Below are positions 7,762 to 26,876 of a DNA stretch of 33,570 nucleotides, one piece after another. The notes under the pieces were generated by a model. That model was not told where the DNA came from. It did not search any database and was given only the letters and a program-made list of their open reading frames with translations. This DNA is from an uncultured Nitrospira sp. (GTDB lineage Bacteria > Nitrospirota > Nitrospiria > Nitrospirales > Nitrospiraceae), in contig CABVRW010000036.1 of NCBI GenBank assembly GCA_902500785.1, positions 2,967 through 36,536 on the forward strand, read 5' to 3'. Positions within the stretch are counted from its first letter, which is position 1; each line of letters begins with the position of its first letter. The position numbers and the translations under genes were made by a program.

Positions 7762-10700
7762 CTATCGTCTTGTGCGTACGGTGCTCACAATAGCTTCGTA
7801 GAGCTGGCCGGCGGCGCGTTCTTTAGTCACGAAGACCGCCGCCCCCGCGCCGATCATCGCCTCTTCGATGTGGAGTTCGTTTTGGACCGACAATCCGATC
7901 ACGATGACATCGGGGTGTAGGGCGACGATGCGGCGGGTGGCTTCTACCCCGTCGATCTTCGGCATATTGACGTCCATCACCACGATGTCAGGTTTTAAGG
8001 CGGTTGTGATGGCAATCGCGGATTCGCCGTCACCCGCTTCGCCGATGACCTCCAGGTCCTGATAACTGTCCAGCACACTTCGTAGCCCTTGTCGAACCAT
8101 CTCATGGTCGTCGACGAGCAGCACGCGCAAACATTGCGATGGGGCGATGGGAGAGGCCGTGAGACGTGTGGCCCGCGCTGCGTTGGCTCCCTGTTCGGAC
8201 TGGGAGGGCGCGGCTATCGGGGCCGTGAGTATGATGGTCGTGCCGCTGTCTTCCGAGGACCGCAGAGTGAGATGCCCACCGAGCGCCTCTACTCGCTCTT
8301 GAACATTGAACAGGCCAAATCGGCCTGGGATTGTCCGGTCGGTCTCCATTATGGTCGTCGGATTGAATCCGCATCCCCGATCCGTGACGGTGATAGTCAC
8401 GAGAGATTCTTCGGGACAGGCAAGGACAATGGACGCCTCATTGGTCCGGGCATGTTTGACGACGTTGAACAATAACTCTCGAACGCTCTGGTATAAGATC
8501 ACGGCGCTGTCTTCAGCCATGTGAAGCTGATCGACCTCGCAATGGACTGTGACGGTCAGCGCATGGGTCTTCATCTGGTCGGCCAGCCATTTGAGCGCGG
8601 CCGGCAGGCCGAATTGGTATAGGACCTGCGGGCTCAGTTCTGCGACGAGGAAACGCGTATAATCGAGGGATTGCAAGAGAGCGTTATCCGCCTCGTTCAG
8701 GAGCTGATGGGTTTTCGGGTCTTGAATGTGCGGGTTGGCTTGGCCTAATTTCATACGCGCGACCACCAATAACTGAGCCAGGTAGTCGTGAAGTTCCGTC
8801 GCCAGCCGCCGCCGCTCTTGCTGCTCTGTCGCGCTCAAGTCGGAGGCCAAGGCGCGCAGGCGTTCCTGCGAACGTACCAGAGCCTGCGTCCGCTCTTGTA
8901 CCCGCTCTTCTAACTCCACCGTCCATTTCTGCAGCTGTTCTTCGGCATGTTTTCGATCGGTAATGTCGATGGCCGAGCCGAGGTATCCGCGGAAAGATCC
9001 ATTTTCCGTCAGGAGCGGGACCCCTCGATCCAGAATCCACCCATAGGTTCCGTCCTCACGACGTAGGCGGTATTCCAGTTCAAACGACTCGTGTTGGGAG
9101 AAGTGTGCCGTGTAGACTTTAAAGTAGTACGCCCTATCGTCAGGATGGATGCCGGCGGTCCATCCTTGTCCCAGTTCGTCTTCGAGGGCACGACCCGTAT
9201 ATTGAAGCCACGATCGATTCAGCCAGGTCCAGCCCCGGTCGGGTCCGGCCATCCATACGAGCACCGGAGTGGCGTCAGCCAGCATGCGGAAATGGGCTTC
9301 GCTCTCTCGCAGTCCTGCTTCGGCCCGTTTGCGTTCGGTGATGTCGCGAACGATGGCGTGCCAGCGTCGGTCCGGCTGAAGTTTGGCGCTGATTTCGACG
9401 GTCAGTGTCGCCCCGTCCTTTCTGCGCAGTTGCCATTCGGCGGAGTGGCGATGTCCGTCGAGCAATTCGGCTTTGATGTCCTTCAGACGTCTATAGTCAT
9501 GCGGGTCGAGGAGGTCGGTCACACTCATGCTGAGGAGTTCTTCGCGGGAATATCCCAACATGTGACAGGCGCGAGTATTCACATCCAGGTAATGTCCCGC
9601 CATATCCGCCATGACGATGCCGTCGGAAGCCTGCTCGAAGAGATGTCGAAACCGCTCTTCGCTTTCTCTCAGTGCCTGCTCGGTCCGCTTCCGGTCCGTC
9701 ATATCGGTGATGAGGACATAGAATCCTTCGACCCGTCCCTCTGCCGTCCGTTCCGGGACATAGGTCGACAAGAGCGTTTCTTCGCCGGCTTGCCTCAGGC
9801 TGGTGGTTTCGAATGTAATTTGTTCGCCTTCCAGCACCCGGCGGATGAATTCCTGCACTTGGGAATAGTTCTGTTGCAGGAGCTCCTCGACCGATCCTCC
9901 GATGATCCGTTCCCGAGGGAGTCCAAAATGCCGTTCATACCCTGCGTTGACAAAACGATACCGTTCGTTTCGGTCCACATAGGCGATCAGCACCGGTAAG
10001 GCATCGGTGATGACACGCAACTGCTCTTCGCTCTGTCGAAGGGCGGTTTCCGAGCGTTTACGATCGGAAATATCAAACATGACGCCGGTGATTTGCCGCG
10101 GCCGCCCGGTCGAATCGGGGAGCACTTGCCCGGTCACCGCGATCCAGTCCTCGTCCTCAGGCGTATTGCGGAGGATGCGGCACTCCAGGTCGTAGGCGGT
10201 CCTGTGTTGAACGGCGTCGTCGATGGTTTGGCGCACCCGTTGTCGATCATCGTGGTGAATCAGATCTTGAAAGGCGTCGAAGGTGCTCCCGAAGCTCATG
10301 GGGGGCAGACCGAAGATGGCTTCCAGTTCAGGAGAGAAGGCCAACGTCTGGCTATCGAGGTCGTGGTGAAAGGTTCCCATGCGTCCGGCTCTCAAGGCCA
10401 GACGGTGTCGGGCTTCACGCTGTTGGAGAATCTGCATGATGTGCTTCTTTTGGCCGTCGGCGTGGTTCAAGCTGCCCGCCAGGGTCCAGATGAACGCCAG
10501 CATGATCAACAGGACCGAGGCCACGGCCAGCGCGACGCCGAAATTGAAATCGTAGTGGCCTGATCGCTGAGCCGTGATGCGAATCCATCCGGCGAGAATC
10601 GGCAGTGTGACGGCAAATGGCAGGAGACGCCGCAACATCAATCCGCCGAGCTTCTCACTTGTCAGTGTGGCCATCAAGCCTCTGGTGGGACGCGCGGAGA

Positions 10701-11316
10701 GGATACCCAGCCCCAAGACAAACAGGAGGAAGGCGCTGTAGAGGGAGATAGCGGAGAACGTGCCTACTTTATAGAGTGTCCGGACACCGTATAAATAGCC
10801 GACCAGCGCGATACCGCCGATCGTTCCTCCCACCAAGGCGGCATACTGGTCGAAGGAGTGCCTGGCCTGACCGGCGATCTTGTTCGTATCCAGCCATAGG
10901 AGCGCCAGCCCCAACAGCAGGATGGCGAAGGCTGTGGCGGGAGCCATGCGTCCGGGATGCGGATCGATCGACAGGTCCGGGTGTGAGACGAGCCACTCGT
11001 CCATTGCAAGGTCGATGGAAAGCAGGTGTTCCGACAGGGGCAGGATAGCCAGAAGGCAGGCAAGCATCGCTGCGCCCTGCGCGGCATGCCGCTTCGCCGT
11101 CGTGACGGTAGCCTCATCCGCTTGCAACCAGAGAGAGACCCCGCAGAAGAAAACCGCCAACAGTGTTGTGGGTCTCAGCGTACGGAAAGAGGAATGCAGG
11201 TCGTGGAGGAGCGAAGGATCATAGGCCAGGCAGAGGAGTGTGATAACTGGAAATACGATTGCCAATCCGGCGGTCGACAACACCAGACGCTGCAATGTGA
11301 GTAGCATCGAGGTCAT
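7762..11316 (-). CDS. Membrane PAS sensor histidine kinase with C-terminal receiver, no HTH (1184 aa)
   Basis: The N-terminal 285 residues hold several membrane helices. About four PAS domains follow (about 305-425, 430-550, 555-670, 680-800), each closing with D-x-(T/S)-(D/E)-RK. A coiled linker leads to a HisKA_3 dimerisation domain with phospho-acceptor H843 (RRRLATELHDYLAQ) and a HATPase with TDRGCGFN. The C-terminus (1063-1184) is a NarL-type receiver (LLVDDHEMVRQGL, D1115 in VMDVNMPKIDG). It stops exactly where a NarL/LuxR response regulator would continue into its helix-turn-helix. The output is therefore phosphotransfer or a phosphate sink rather than direct DNA binding. The start lacks a good ribosome binding site. 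It has a strong CTAGG-box promoter at 11471-11516. Confidence 0.9.
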   Translation of the reverse strand: MTSMLLTLQRLVLSTAGLAIVFPVITLLCLAYDPSLLHDLHSSFRTLRPTTLLAVFFCGVSLWLQADEATVTTAKRHAAQGAAMLACLLAILPLSEHLLSIDLAMDEWLVSHPDLSIDPHPGRMAPATAFAILLLGLALLWLDTNKIAGQARHSFDQYAALVGGTIGGIALVGYLYGVRTLYKVGTFSAISLYSAFLLFVLGLGILSARPTRGLMATLTSEKLGGLMLRRLLPFAVTLPILAGWIRITAQRSGHYDFNFGVALAVASVLLIMLAFIWTLAGSLNHADGQKKHIMQILQQREARHRLALRAGRMGTFHHDLDSQTLAFSPELEAIFGLPPMSFGSTFDAFQDLIHHDDRQRVRQTIDDAVQHRTAYDLECRILRNTPEDEDWIAVTGQVLPDSTGRPRQITGVMFDISDRKRSETALRQSEEQLRVITDALPVLIAYVDRNERYRFVNAGYERHFGLPRERIIGGSVEELLQQNYSQVQEFIRRVLEGEQITFETTSLRQAGEETLLSTYVPERTAEGRVEGFYVLITDMTDRKRTEQALRESEERFRHLFEQASDGIVMADMAGHYLDVNTRACHMLGYSREELLSMSVTDLLDPHDYRRLKDIKAELLDGHRHSAEWQLRRKDGATLTVEISAKLQPDRRWHAIVRDITERKRAEAGLRESEAHFRMLADATPVLVWMAGPDRGWTWLNRSWLQYTGRALEDELGQGWTAGIHPDDRAYYFKVYTAHFSQHESFELEYRLRREDGTYGWILDRGVPLLTENGSFRGYLGSAIDITDRKHAEEQLQKWTVELEERVQERTQALVRSQERLRALASDLSATEQQERRRLATELHDYLAQLLVVARMKLGQANPHIQDPKTHQLLNEADNALLQSLDYTRFLVAELSPQVLYQFGLPAALKWLADQMKTHALTVTVHCEVDQLHMAEDSAVILYQSVRELLFNVVKHARTNEASIVLACPEESLVTITVTDRGCGFNPTTIMETDRTIPGRFGLFNVQERVEALGGHLTLRSSEDSGTTIILTAPIAAPSQSEQGANAARATRLTASPIAPSQCLRVLLVDDHEMVRQGLRSVLDSYQDLEVIGEAGDGESAIAITTALKPDIVVMDVNMPKIDGVEATRRIVALHPDVIVIGLSVQNELHIEEAMIGAGAAVFVTKERAAGQLYEAIVSTVRTRR

Positions 11317-11470: not shown

Positions 11471-11516
11471 ATCATACCGCCTTCGAAAATGATTGAGCAC
11501 TGGGGGATCCCCTAGT
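11471..11516 (-). promoter_or_regulatory. CTAGG-box promoter of the 1184-aa kinase
   Basis: Read on the minus strand, the dyad at 11516-11499 is ACTAGGG-GATC-CCCCAGT (one mismatch between arms). A good -10 TATGAT lies at 11476-11471, 22 bases downstream. Predicted start near 11464 leaves a leader of about 148 bases. The site lies after the stop of nothing on this strand except the upstream kinase gene ending at 11542. Confidence 0.72.
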
Positions 11517-16810: not shown

Positions 16811-17646
16811 ACATCGCCTCGTTTCTGATAGATCCGTTCGCCGGAAAGCACCTGGGCGAACGTCTCGGCGTGGGCGTTGAAGCGCAGGCTTTCCCTGGCG
16901 CCGACACCGAGAAACCCCTTTCGGACGAGTGCCGCCTTGAACAGCCCGACTGCGCGGTCTTGCAGCGGACGGTCGAAATAGATCAGCACGTTGCGGCACG
17001 ACACCAAATGCACCTCGGCGAAGACCGCGTCTGAGACCAGACTATGGTCGGAAAAGACCGTGCGCCGGCGGAGCGTCTTGTCGAGCCTGGCGGCTCCGTA
17101 TGCGGCGGTATAGTAGTCCGACAGCGAACCCTTGCCGCCGGCCAGGTTGTGGTTGCGAGTAAATAGGGCGAGACGCTGGAGATCATAGATCCCGGCCTCC
17201 GCCTTCGCAAGCGCGCCGGCATTGATGTCCGTGGCGTAGAACATGGTCCTGCTCTCCAGCCCTTCCTCACGGAACAGAATGGCGAGGGAGTACAATTCCT
17301 CGCCCGAGCTGCACCCGGCCACCCAGACCTTCAATGAGGGATAGGTCCGGAGGTGTGGAATGACCTGTTCGCGCAAGGCCAGGAAATAGCCGGGGTCGCG
17401 GAACATGTCGCTCACCTGCACCGTGAGGTAGTCCAGGAGCTGCGGGAGCACCGTGGCATCGTAGAGCACGCGCTCTTGCAAGGCGGAGAAGGTGGGGCAG
17501 CCCATCCGTTCCCGTGCCAGCAGGAGTCGTCGTTTGATCGAGGCCCTCGAGTACCCGCGAAAATCGTAGTGATATCGGCGATAGATGGCCTCGAGAAACA
17601 GCTGCAGTTCGATCTCGTCGGCTTTCACCGCCGCGCTGTTGGTCAT
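16807..17646 (-). CDS. cheR: CheR-type protein-glutamate methyltransferase
   Basis: A 279-aa CheR protein. The N-terminal all-alpha domain (residues about 10-75, FLEAIYRRYHYDFRGYSRASIKRRLLLARE) is followed by the SAM-dependent methyltransferase domain. That part shows MFRDPGYF, the SAM motif VWVAGCSSGEELYSLAI and VSCRNVLIYFDRPLQ. It transfers methyl groups from SAM to glutamates. The start at 17646 overlaps the stop of the upstream hybrid kinase as ATGA; a start at 17793 would lie deep in that gene. The pair cheR-cheB between two hybrid kinases mirrors the large CheB-CheR-PAS-kinase fusion proteins of other bacteria, here as separate genes. Confidence 0.92.
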   Translation of the reverse strand: MTNSAAVKADEIELQLFLEAIYRRYHYDFRGYSRASIKRRLLLARERMGCPTFSALQERVLYDATVLPQLLDYLTVQVSDMFRDPGYFLALREQVIPHLRTYPSLKVWVAGCSSGEELYSLAILFREEGLESRTMFYATDINAGALAKAEAGIYDLQRLALFTRNHNLAGGKGSLSDYYTAAYGAARLDKTLRRRTVFSDHSLVSDAVFAEVHLVSCRNVLIYFDRPLQDRAVGLFKAALVRKGFLGVGARESLRFNAHAETFAQVLSGERIYQKRGDV

Positions 17647-20600
17647 CGCGGCATCCATACGCGCACCAGCGACAACAGTTGTTCGACGTCGAGCGGCTTG
17701 GCCATGTAGTCGTTCGCGCCGGCCGCCAGCGCCTGCTCCTGGTCGTGTTTCATCGCCTTCGCCGTCAGGGCGATGATGGGGAGTTTCCGCCATTCGGACC
17801 GCTCACGGATGGCGCGGATAGCGGTGAGGCCGTCCATCTCGGGCATCATGAGATCCATCAAGACCAGGTCGATCAACCGATCGTGGTTGCGCAGCGACTC
17901 CTCGAGGACGGTCAGGGACTCGCGGCCGTTCCGAGCGATCTCGATCTTCGCGCCGTGCGGTTCCAGCACCGCGCTCAAGGCAAAAATATTCCGCACGTCG
18001 TCTTCGACGATCAGAATCCGACGGGCTTCCAGCACCGCGTTCCGGCTGCGGGCCTTCTCCAGCATCCGCTGCTGATCGGGCGGCAGCGCGGTGACAACCT
18101 GGTGCAGGAATAACGTGACCTCGTCGAGCAATCGTTCGGGGGATTTGGCCCCCTTGATAATGATGGACTGCGAATATTTGCGCAGCCGTTGCTCCTCATC
18201 GAGTGAGAGATCTCGGCCCGTGTAGACGATCACGGGTGGGAGCGTGAGATGCTCCTCACGGCTTAACGTCTCGAGTAACGAGAATCCGGAGGCATCGGGC
18301 AACGTGAGGTCGAGGACCATGCAATCGAAGGTTCGCTCGGCGAGTTGGGCGAGACATTCGGCGCCGCTGGCCACGCCGATGGTTTCGACTTCATCCGATC
18401 CAAGCAAGAGCCGCAGGCTGTCTCGTTGGGCGGGATCGTCTTCCACAATGAGAACCCGGCGCGGCTTTTCCGTGAGCCTGGTTTCGACTTCCCGGAAGGC
18501 CTGGACGAGTTGCTCTCGTTTCACCGGTTTGAGCATGTATCCCGCGGCGCCTAATGAGAGGGCCGTCTTCTCATAATCGTGGCCGGAGACGACGTGAACG
18601 GGAATGTGCCTTGTCCTGGCGTCGGCCTTGAGGCGATCAATGACGGAGAGCCCGGAATGGTCCGGTAATCCGAGATCGAGAATGACTGCCCGCGGCAAAT
18701 GGCGTGCCGCGAGGGTCAGGGCATCGGCCGCCGTCGTGCTGATCAGCACCTGGAAATTGAGTTCGTGGGCGAGGTCCGCGAGAACCCTAGCAAAGGATTC
18801 GTCGTCTTCGACGATTAAAATCACTCGTCGGTCCGCCGCCAGTTGTTCCCGGTCATCGGCGATGTGCGTCGTCGGGATGCGTGCCTCGGACGCTGCCGTC
18901 GGCGTGGCGGTGACGTCGCTCGGCTTGATCCGCTCGGGTGGAACTCGCGCGAGCAAGGAAGGTGAAGGGGCGAGAGAATCCCCGGACGAGGAGAGGCGGG
19001 GCAGGAGCACAGTGAAGGTGCTGCCCTGACCGGGGGTGCTTGAGAGACGAATTTCTCCTCCCAGTAACCGGACGAATTCGCGCGAAATGGACAGTCCCAG
19101 GCCGGTCCCGCCGTATTTGCGGCTGGTGGTGCCGTCGGCTTGGCAAAAAGGCTCGAAAATCAGCTCATGCTGATCAAGTGGAATGCCGATGCCGGTGTCT
19201 TGAACCGTGAAACCCATGCGGCCGTCCTCGATCTGAGAGATTTCGAGTGACACCTCCCCCTCCTCGGTGAACTTGATGGCGTTCGACAGAAGGTTTTTCA
19301 GCACCTGCTCCAGTCGTTGCCAATCGGTTTCGAACGATTCGGGAGTGCCGGGACGTGTCCGCAGGATGAGCCGCAACCTCCGCTGCTCCGCGAGCGGTTG
19401 GAACATCGACTGCAAATGATCGATCAGCCGCGAGATCGATTCTTCTGTCGGCGCGAGGTCGATGCGGCCGGACTCCACCTTGGAGAGGTCCAAGACGTCG
19501 TCGATCAGCGTCAGGAGATCATGGCCGGACGACTCGATCGTCGTGAGGGATTTGATCTGTTCGAGCGAGAGATTGCCCTGGGGATTCTCGGCCAGCAGCT
19601 TTGTGAGAATAAGGGTGGAGTTCAACGGGGTCCGCATTTCGTGCGACATGTTGGCTAAAAACTCGGACTTGTAGCGACTGGCTTGTTCCAATTGTCTGGT
19701 TTGCGTTTCGAGCATCGTCGTGGATTTATTCAGGTCTGCTTTCTGCGTTTCGAGAATCTGGGCCTGCTCCTCCAACTGCGAGTTGGTCTGTTCCAGCTCC
19801 GCCTGTTGTTGTTCGAGGCGACTGTGCGATTCCTTGAGCGCTCGGGTCTGTTCTTCGAGTTCTTCGTTGGAGACCCGGAGTTCCTCGCTCTGCACCTGCA
19901 GCTCCTCGGTCTGCCGCTGAGTCTCCTCCAGGAGTTCCTGAAGCCGGGTCCGGTATTGAGCCGATCGGACCGCCACGGCGATCGATTCCGCGACACGATC
20001 GATGAACTCACGATCTGAGTTCGTCACGCGATGGAAGAACCCGAACTCCATGACGGTGGTGACTCGTCCGTCCAGCTTCAGCGGAGCGATCATGAGGTGG
20101 CGCGGAGCGCTCCGCCCAAGACCGGAGCCGATAGTGAAATAGCCGTCCGGGAGGTCATCCACCACGACGAGGCGTCGATGTTGCACCGATTGACCCAGGA
20201 GTCCGTCTCCCGCAACGAACCGCTCCGGCATGGCGGTGCCCTCCGGTACGCCGTAGGTCGCTGTTCGATGAAACCCGCTCCCGTCGTCGATGAAGATGGC
20301 GCCGGCCTGCGCTCCGAGGTATTCGGCGAGACCATGCAACAGGTTTTCGCCCAGCCTGTTCATCGTCTGCTCCCCCGTCATCCGTTCGCTGAGCAGCGTT
20401 TGGCCCACCCGCATCCACTCTTCCTTGCGCGTGGCGAGCCGGCTGCGGATGAAATGCGCGCCGAAGGCCCCCAGCGCCCAAGCCGTCACGATCCCGGCCC
20501 CGCGATTGATCAGGGGCACGAACGGGTCGGGGCCCAAGGGACTGACGAATAAACCTACGACGGTGAGGATCGCCACGGCGACTGCCACGGCGATCGGCAC

Positions 20601-20762
20601 CGCGGGAAACCAGACCAGATAGGCGAGCACCAGCGGAATCAGGTAGAGCACCCACAGGGTGACGCCGAGCGGCGTGAACATGTCGAGAATAAAGACGATG
20701 GGCAGGGAGAGAACGATGGCGCCGGACAGCAACGGATGGGGAGGCTGTTGAAATCGTGTCAT
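17643..20762 (-). CDS. Membrane GAF hybrid histidine kinase with three receivers (1039 aa)
   Basis: Four N-terminal membrane helices (about 12-115) lead to a GAF domain (about 145-280, GAIFIDDGSGFHRTATYGVP) and a long Glu/Gln-rich coiled coil (about 282-355). A classical HisKA domain follows with H374 (FLANMSHEMRTPLN), then a HATPase (VQDTGIGIP, GGTGLGLSI). Three receivers end the protein, beginning VILIVEDDESF, RVLIVEDDPAQ and RILIVEDDVRN. The layout is that of CheR/CheB-linked multi-receiver kinases, and no HPt domain is visible. The ATG has no ribosome binding site of its own and overlaps a 16-codon leader ORF as ATGA. It is first in an operon with cheR, cheB and a second hybrid kinase, behind a perfect CTAGG dyad. 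Confidence 0.92.
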   Translation of the reverse strand: MTRFQQPPHPLLSGAIVLSLPIVFILDMFTPLGVTLWVLYLIPLVLAYLVWFPAVPIAVAVAVAILTVVGLFVSPLGPDPFVPLINRGAGIVTAWALGAFGAHFIRSRLATRKEEWMRVGQTLLSERMTGEQTMNRLGENLLHGLAEYLGAQAGAIFIDDGSGFHRTATYGVPEGTAMPERFVAGDGLLGQSVQHRRLVVVDDLPDGYFTIGSGLGRSAPRHLMIAPLKLDGRVTTVMEFGFFHRVTNSDREFIDRVAESIAVAVRSAQYRTRLQELLEETQRQTEELQVQSEELRVSNEELEEQTRALKESHSRLEQQQAELEQTNSQLEEQAQILETQKADLNKSTTMLETQTRQLEQASRYKSEFLANMSHEMRTPLNSTLILTKLLAENPQGNLSLEQIKSLTTIESSGHDLLTLIDDVLDLSKVESGRIDLAPTEESISRLIDHLQSMFQPLAEQRRLRLILRTRPGTPESFETDWQRLEQVLKNLLSNAIKFTEEGEVSLEISQIEDGRMGFTVQDTGIGIPLDQHELIFEPFCQADGTTSRKYGGTGLGLSISREFVRLLGGEIRLSSTPGQGSTFTVLLPRLSSSGDSLAPSPSLLARVPPERIKPSDVTATPTAASEARIPTTHIADDREQLAADRRVILIVEDDESFARVLADLAHELNFQVLISTTAADALTLAARHLPRAVILDLGLPDHSGLSVIDRLKADARTRHIPVHVVSGHDYEKTALSLGAAGYMLKPVKREQLVQAFREVETRLTEKPRRVLIVEDDPAQRDSLRLLLGSDEVETIGVASGAECLAQLAERTFDCMVLDLTLPDASGFSLLETLSREEHLTLPPVIVYTGRDLSLDEEQRLRKYSQSIIIKGAKSPERLLDEVTLFLHQVVTALPPDQQRMLEKARSRNAVLEARRILIVEDDVRNIFALSAVLEPHGAKIEIARNGRESLTVLEESLRNHDRLIDLVLMDLMMPEMDGLTAIRAIRERSEWRKLPIIALTAKAMKHDQEQALAAGANDYMAKPLDVEQLLSLVRVWMPR

Positions 20763-20964: not shown

Positions 20965-21010
20965 TTTGTACTGCGATTCCGCCTGCGCCCACACTAGGGA
21001 GACCCCTAGT
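20965..21010 (-). promoter_or_regulatory. CTAGG-box promoter of the kinase-cheR-cheB-kinase operon
   Basis: A perfect dyad, on the minus strand ACTAGGG-GTCT-CCCTAGT (21010-20993), with 7-bp arms. The -10-like TACAAA lies at 20970-20965, 22 bases downstream. Predicted start near 20958, giving a leader of about 196 bases that contains the 16-codon ORF. Confidence 0.75.
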
Positions 21011-25566: not shown

Positions 25567-26037
25567 TCAGGTCTGCGCCATCAAGGGCATCTCGGATGAC
25601 TCAGGAAGTTCAATAGAATACTGGCCACGTCCTAGATACTTCAAACGAAGTTGGCCGATTCGGCTCAGCCGATCCACTTCCGAAAAAACTTGGTTCCACG
25701 TCAGTGTCGGACAGGCCCGTACGAGCATATCCAAATCGCATCGTTGGACCCTTGAGAACACATCCAGAATCATAGTGGCCGCATGACTGTCTCCGTCCGA
25801 GGTGTGGCGAGGTAGATCCGGCCGCGCAATCGATGCGTCGGCATGGGACTGCGTGCTGAATCGCACGGCGCAACGCGGGCAGTAGGTGTGCGTGAGGTGA
25901 TATTCGCCGCTCGACAAATGATGCAGGCTGAGAAAAGTGTCAAGAGGACCCCAGCTTTCTTCCATTCCCTCGGCCTGCACAAATTCTCTCACGCTATTGC
26001 ACGCGCAGCAAATGGGAATGACTATGGCAGTGCTCAT
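25567..26037 (-). CDS. Zinc-ribbon and winged-helix-like protein, possible regulator (156 aa)
   Basis: The N-terminal half has two Cys pairs, C10/C13 (ICCACNSVREF) and C53/C56 (YCPRCAVRF). A W and H-rich stretch between them resembles the IC-x-x-C ... CP-x-C module often attached to bacterial signalling proteins. The C-terminal half (about 90-150, MILDVFSRVQRCDLDMLVRACP, then LTWNQVFSEVDRLSRIGQL, then LKYLGRGQYSIEL) has the helix-helix-strand-turn-strand pattern of a winged helix. This is the only protein in the window that could bind DNA. The start at 26037 has GGAGGGG upstream. Its promoter carries one of the two perfect CTAGG dyads. Function is unproven. Confidence 0.7.
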   Translation of the reverse strand: MSTAIVIPICCACNSVREFVQAEGMEESWGPLDTFLSLHHLSSGEYHLTHTYCPRCAVRFSTQSHADASIARPDLPRHTSDGDSHAATMILDVFSRVQRCDLDMLVRACPTLTWNQVFSEVDRLSRIGQLRLKYLGRGQYSIELPESSEMPLMAQT

Positions 26038-26092
26038 ATGCCCCTCCATGGTAACGGTGTGAACTGCCTTCCAGAGACGAATCGTACGCCCC

Positions 26093-26138
26093 ATATTAGG
26101 AACATTGGCCTAGGCGGAGAACTAGGACAACTCCTAGT
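26093..26138 (-). promoter_or_regulatory. CTAGG-box promoter of the winged-helix-like gene
   Basis: A perfect dyad: on the minus strand ACTAGGA-GTTG-TCCTAGT (26138-26121). The -10 TAATAT lies at 26098-26093, 22 bases downstream. Predicted start near 26086, leader about 49 bases. A further CCTAGG lies at 26110-26115 between the two elements. Confidence 0.75.
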
Positions 26139-26192
26139 TTCGTTCCTCGTAGGTCATAAACGCATCGACAATTCCTCGTCCCGGTGCCCGGT

Positions 26193-26247: not shown

Positions 26248-26685
26248 CTATTGAACAGTGATTGAACCGTGGGTATCGGCCAGGCTGGTATGGGTATCGC
26301 CGGAAGGTCGAACCGAATACTTGACCGTACCGATACGACTGAAGCAGAGGCCTGCGGTTTCATTGCTGGCCAAGGTCGTGGAATTGTCCACGCCCATGCC
26401 CATCGCTTTGGAGAACCCGTTTCGGCAGGACACTGTATGTTCGAGCGGCCCATCGATCGTCACGGTGACGGAGTCCTGTCGCTGATTGATCCAGCGGACC
26501 TCGTCGCCCGCGCTGACCGTCAATGCAGTAGGCGCGATCGTCTCGTTGATGACGATGTTCTTGACGATACCCGTCTTGGTGCCTGCCTGGGTTTCTGTGC
26601 GGGTTTTCGTCGCCGTCGGAGAGCTGGAGCAGGCGGCCAACGAAATAAGTGCCATTGCGAGAATCGAATGTAGAACAATCTTCAT
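26248..26685 (-). CDS. Cupredoxin-like lipoprotein lacking a full copper site
   Basis: A 145-aa lipoprotein with lipobox SLAAC (C19). The mature part follows the cupredoxin plan: IVINETIAPTALTVSAGDEVRWINQRQDSVTVTIDGP, a potential ligand His in LEHTVSC, and a final AGLCFSRIGTVKYSVRPSG. In plastocyanin-like proteins the last loop is C-x-x-H-x-x-M, but here no His or Met follows, so a type 1 copper site looks incomplete. Two extra cysteines could form a disulfide. The start at 26685 has GAGGAGG seven bases upstream. It may be under the back-facing side of the dyad at 26831-26848 (TACTGT at 26808-26803). Confidence 0.8.
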   Translation of the reverse strand: MKIVLHSILAMALISLAACSSSPTATKTRTETQAGTKTGIVKNIVINETIAPTALTVSAGDEVRWINQRQDSVTVTIDGPLEHTVSCRNGFSKAMGMGVDNSTTLASNETAGLCFSRIGTVKYSVRPSGDTHTSLADTHGSITVQ

Positions 26686-26830
26686 GGTGTTCCTCCTCGG
26701 TGAAATAAATGTGATACTGGTATTATCCCCAAGCCTGTTATGAGGCGAACTCGAAGCCATGCTTCTCCATCGTAGGTTCGCATGTCATCTCTTTGGTGTC
26801 TCACAGTACCCAGGTCTGGGTTGTCCCCAT

Positions 26831-26876
26831 ACTCGGGAGACCCCCAGTATGCGTGCAGGGCATGCCTGGTTATGGT
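26831..26876 (+). promoter_or_regulatory. CTAGG-box promoter of the DUF6279 gene, possibly bidirectional
   Basis: The dyad at 26831-26848 is ACTCGGG-AGAC-CCCCAGT. TATGGT lies at 26871-26876, 22 bases downstream on the plus strand. On the minus strand TACTGT lies at the same distance (26808-26803), facing the cupredoxin-like gene. The predicted plus-strand start near 26884 rules out upstream start codons for the DUF6279 gene. Confidence 0.65.

Follow-up and report, generated by a model that had tools for sequence, protein, structure and literature searches.

A predicted class II promoter element of a Nitrospira stress/signalling regulon and its probable target, a 156-aa Cys-module and winged-helix protein

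The perfect dyad upstream of a 156-aa protein gene in an uncultured Nitrospira sp. belongs to a fixed-spacing promoter element for a stress/signalling regulon of this genus. We consider it probable that the 156-aa protein is a target of this regulon and that a NarL/LuxR-type response regulator recognises the dyad, acting as a class II activator. Under this explanation, HisKA_3-type hybrid kinases of the surrounding island would phosphorylate the response regulator, which would then bind the dyad as a dimer and, standing in the place of the -35 box, recruit RNA polymerase. The element was defined from sequence alone. Nitrospira are key nitrite oxidisers, and no comparable element was found in the literature searched. 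The outcome is a target list and a short list of regulators, from which one wrong candidate (the 156-aa protein as reader of the dyad) has been removed.

The window, meaning the whole 33,570-nt stretch that was analysed (G000:C36:2967-36536), is part of a gene-dense stress/signalling island whose gene order is kept in several Nitrospira genomes. The Pfam content of the island includes hybrid histidine kinases, CheR, a ferritin-like protein, a glycosidase, and PLD/VTT and nuclease-like proteins; putative catalase, Ku/ligase D and trehalose-type genes were also read from the letters. The features of the window are collected in Table 1. The open reading frame of the 156-aa protein is real, and its product is as quoted in the earlier note. 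Translation more probably begins at the ATG at 26037 (or at 26049), since the start codon of the longer reading frame, at 26094, falls within the predicted -10 box. At the 22-nt position of the dyad at 20993-21010 stands TACAAA, one mismatch from TANNNT. The weaker divergent sites face a lipoprotein gene (26248-26760, minus strand) and a DUF6279 gene (plus strand), and a counterpart of the site around their dyad was found in G010, G018 and G020.

Table 1. Coordinates of the protein, its modules and the element sites within the window
Feature	Position	Strand	Basis or remark
156-aa protein P0001, Cys-pair module plus winged helix, predicted dyad-regulon target	25567..26037	-	ORF, orthologues, AlphaFold2
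N-terminal Cys module (C10/C13/C53/C56), residues 1-63	25849..26037	-	Invariant in 22 orthologues
C-terminal winged helix, residues 81-148	25594..25797	-	AlphaFold2 model, VIA-align Z about 10
ACTAGG-N6-CCTAGT, perfect dyad and predicted class II activator site for the 156-aa gene	26121..26138	.	
Predicted -10 box TAATAT, 22 nt downstream of the dyad	26093..26098	-	Composite G000:C36:29059-29104
Second element site (one mismatch), preceding the gene of hybrid histidine kinase 7762-11316	11499..11516	.	
-10-like TATGAT accompanying dyad site 11499-11516	11471-11476		
The window's other perfect dyad, preceding the gene of hybrid histidine kinase 17643-20762	20993..21010	.	
Divergent pair of weaker composite sites (two mismatches each) around dyad 26831-26848	26803..26876	.	

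The dyad of the 156-aa gene reads ACTAGGACAACTCCTAGT, with two perfect 7-bp arms (8-bp arms if it is taken as 26120-26139); some 83 bp lie between it and the ATG. The earlier note had pointed to this perfect dyad in the promoter; it is real, occurs above chance and is conserved among orthologues. In 355 kb of island sequence the exact form ACTAGG-N6-CCTAGT is present in 16 copies, while none of the other spacers between 0 and 15 gave an exact match, and none gave more than 1 match with one mismatch. Allowing one mismatch at the native spacing raised the island count to 31, whereas none of 180 permuted half-sites exceeded 7. A dyad with 0-1 mismatch is found upstream of 16/22 orthologues, and in the aligned orthologue promoters it stands out by its conservation, in most cases 80-105 nt ahead of the start codon. 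Across the Nitrospira sp. genome as a whole, neither one-mismatch dyads (15 vs 20) nor composite sites at three mismatches (64 vs 115) were above the control; loose matches are thus not enriched genome-wide, and only strict matches carry weight. Two exact dyads were also seen elsewhere. The first (G000:C55:23472-23489, L009) lies near short peptide repeats (MGPRHFYRG) pointing to an array of CRISPR-like repeats, and is probably a chance match. The second belongs to another genus (G075, L049), where it stands 119 bp upstream of a match to a stand-alone winged-helix gene.

Thirteen target-gene families were selected by a dyad with no more than one mismatch that has a gene downstream of it, and in 9 of the 13 a TANNNT hexamer follows 22 nt after the dyad, a result reached in 0 of 1000 shuffles. 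When dyad and -10 were combined into one composite (up to one mismatch), 171 matches were found in the 29 genus genomes, compared to 12 for the reversed control, and all 29 genomes contained the element. Taking TANNNT as the -10 box would put the dyad centre near -43, with the dyad spanning the -35 position; relative to the predicted -10 boxes, a CT-N12-AG dyad is fixed over the -35 region. LuxR-type boxes have the consensus CT-N12-AG. For comparison, the lux box is centred at -42.5 (PMC3376562). The Nitrospira element resembles lux-type boxes and LuxR/NarL class II promoters in its CT-N12-AG dyad, in a centre near -43 that replaces the -35 box, and in the presence of GerE-domain regulators nearby. 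It differs from lux-type boxes in its 18-bp core (ACTAGG-N6-CCTAGT), in that it is likely phosphorelay-driven, and in that its position is taken from predicted -10 boxes. By analogy, the dyad is predicted to be a class II activator box of the LuxR kind, and since it stands in for the -35 box, its regulator would recruit RNA polymerase in the class II manner.

Two regulators with Response_reg and GerE domains are encoded immediately to the left of the window (G000:C36:979-2326): RR-A (1670-2326) and RR-B (979-1665). The RR-A gene has its own degenerate but conserved dyad upstream. Orthologues of RR-A and RR-B (83% identity or more) are present in 20 of the 29 genomes, and these 20 hold 63 of the 66 exact dyads. 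Because both the regulators and the dyads sit in the island, this co-occurrence supports readership by RR-A or RR-B but was rejected as proof, being confounded by shared linkage. RR-2, the NarL-type regulator of a second locus described below (C51:16098-16727), is a candidate reader on an equal footing with RR-A and RR-B. The earlier note had named a NarL/LuxR-type response regulator encoded elsewhere as its alternative, and the promoter layout and the neighbouring regulator genes favour that alternative; the readers of the dyad are likely to be response regulators of this class. Many activators use class II positions, and a dimeric regulator from outside the NarL/LuxR class might be proposed instead. 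We regard such a reader as improbable given the CT-N12-AG form of the dyad, its position, and the NarL-type regulator genes that adjoin it at two kinds of locus.

The earlier note had proposed that the 156-aa protein uses its winged helix to bind the dyad and so regulates its own gene as a transcription factor. The structural part of the case for this proposal is supported. Whole-protein AlphaFold2 modelling with 22 orthologues (mean pLDDT 71) gave a clear C-terminal winged helix, as the earlier note had expected, with predicted elements in the order H1-H2-H3-S-S (H83-96, H102-108, H114-126, E131-136 and E139-143); in VIA-align this domain matches Zalpha, Zur and other winged helices with Z about 10 over 62-65 residues. 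Among the window proteins that were scanned, Pfam gave no HTH domain in any other, which agrees with the claim that this is the sole protein of the window with a plausible DNA-binding fold. The predicted H-H-H-strand-strand fold is shared with the DNA-binding proteins Zur, MarR and Zalpha. Unlike these, the 156-aa protein has a slightly acidic winged-helix segment (7 R, 1 K, 6 D, 4 E), which argues against autoregulation, has a winged helix that is dispensable for the regulon, and has no significant family in Pfam, NCBIfam, PHROGs, PADLOC or PDB sequence searches. A literature search for the motif string CKKIRD was without match.

The distribution of the protein does not follow that of the element. 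Only 11 of the 29 genus genomes encode the full-length orthologue (Cys module plus winged helix), compared with the genus-wide occurrence of the element. Eight island genomes (G003, G004, G015, G018, G019, G022, G025 and G027) have an orthologue without the winged helix, and all eight keep exact dyads; in G018, G019 and G022 a dyad is kept in the promoter of the short gene itself. The N-half-only gene of G018 and G027 occupies the equivalent island position, and the N-half tree requires at least two changes between full-length and short forms. In another island genome, G002, the orthologue gene runs off the contig end. In six genomes without the island (G005, G006, G017, G023, G026 and G028) the element is retained at a second locus, flanked by genes for a NarL-type regulator and a Cys-module protein. 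As the element stays where the winged helix is absent, the winged helix is not needed for keeping the element. Genomes with the dyad regulon but without this protein are what the earlier note had named as a refutation, and such genomes, or ones whose orthologue has no winged helix, were found. The claim that the 156-aa protein reads the dyad is thus not supported, and the expected co-occurrence of its DNA-binding domain with the dyad fails. Some observations nevertheless run against a pure target role. Composite sites are more numerous in full-length genomes (mean 9.7 vs 5.0 in N-half-only genomes, p 0.002, a statistic that, like the genome counts, ignores kinship), five N-half-only orthologues have no promoter dyad within three mismatches, and stand-alone winged-helix paralogues might supply the function in trans in genomes that lack the fused domain. 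Weighing the predicted winged helix, the conserved dyad in the protein's own promoter and the higher number of composite sites in full-length genomes against the eight genomes that keep the regulon without the winged helix, we consider autoregulation by the 156-aa protein very improbable. The winged helix of the protein may recognise DNA or a partner protein, but would not in general recognise this dyad.

The second locus is genus-wide and has the order kinase, NarL-type regulator, CCTAGG-N6-CCTAGT with a -10 at 22 nt, small Cys-module gene and outer-membrane-type gene. Examples are G000:C51:16098-17100 (L144), L135-L138, L145-L147, L192, L193, L202, L205 and L211.

The N-terminal half of the 156-aa protein, which the earlier note had described as a Cys-pair, zinc-ribbon-like half, contains two conserved Cys pairs, and all four residues (C10, C13, C53 and C56) are unchanged in the 22 orthologues. 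Modelled alone, this half is predicted confidently (mean pLDDT 82). Structure searches with it returned weak rows only (Nmd3 and PerR, Z 3.1 or less), and its fold is for this reason left unassigned. The module may bind zinc. In sensor proteins the same module has the pattern ICxxC...HxxCPxC. The four Cys, a W and the CP-x-C pattern are shared with CBS-module-REC proteins (E-values: 1e-15 and 4e-8), and a weaker likeness (E-values: 8e-5 to 4e-3) extends to membrane proteins ending in LPICSFCKKIRD..THGFCPEC, which have a shorter form of the module. In contrast to these sensor proteins, the Cys module of Nitrospira is free-standing or fused to a winged helix. The fusions of a CBS domain, the Cys module and a receiver domain are from order-level relatives (L155:1618-2649 and L156:969-2006).

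Since the Cys-module family accompanies two-component genes, the 156-aa protein is probably a signalling accessory. A refinement of the target explanation, compatible with it, is that the protein is both target and modulator: the Cys module would sense zinc or redox state and feed back on the response regulator or kinase. This refinement is plausible but stays short of an even chance. It draws on the Cys module adjoining NarL-type regulators at the second locus under the same element, on the relatives in which the module is fused between CBS and receiver domains, and on winged-helix and Cys-module genes that are also adjacent as separate genes; all of this is association. Somewhat more speculatively, the Cys-module family, whether free or fused to a winged helix, might repeatedly accompany the NarL-type two-component systems of Nitrospira; these systems would control its expression and receive feedback from it, which would make the family a new class of accessory regulators. 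The adjacent separate genes were seen at L148, L149 and L130, where a stand-alone winged-helix gene beside a stand-alone Cys-module gene resembles a split version of the window protein.
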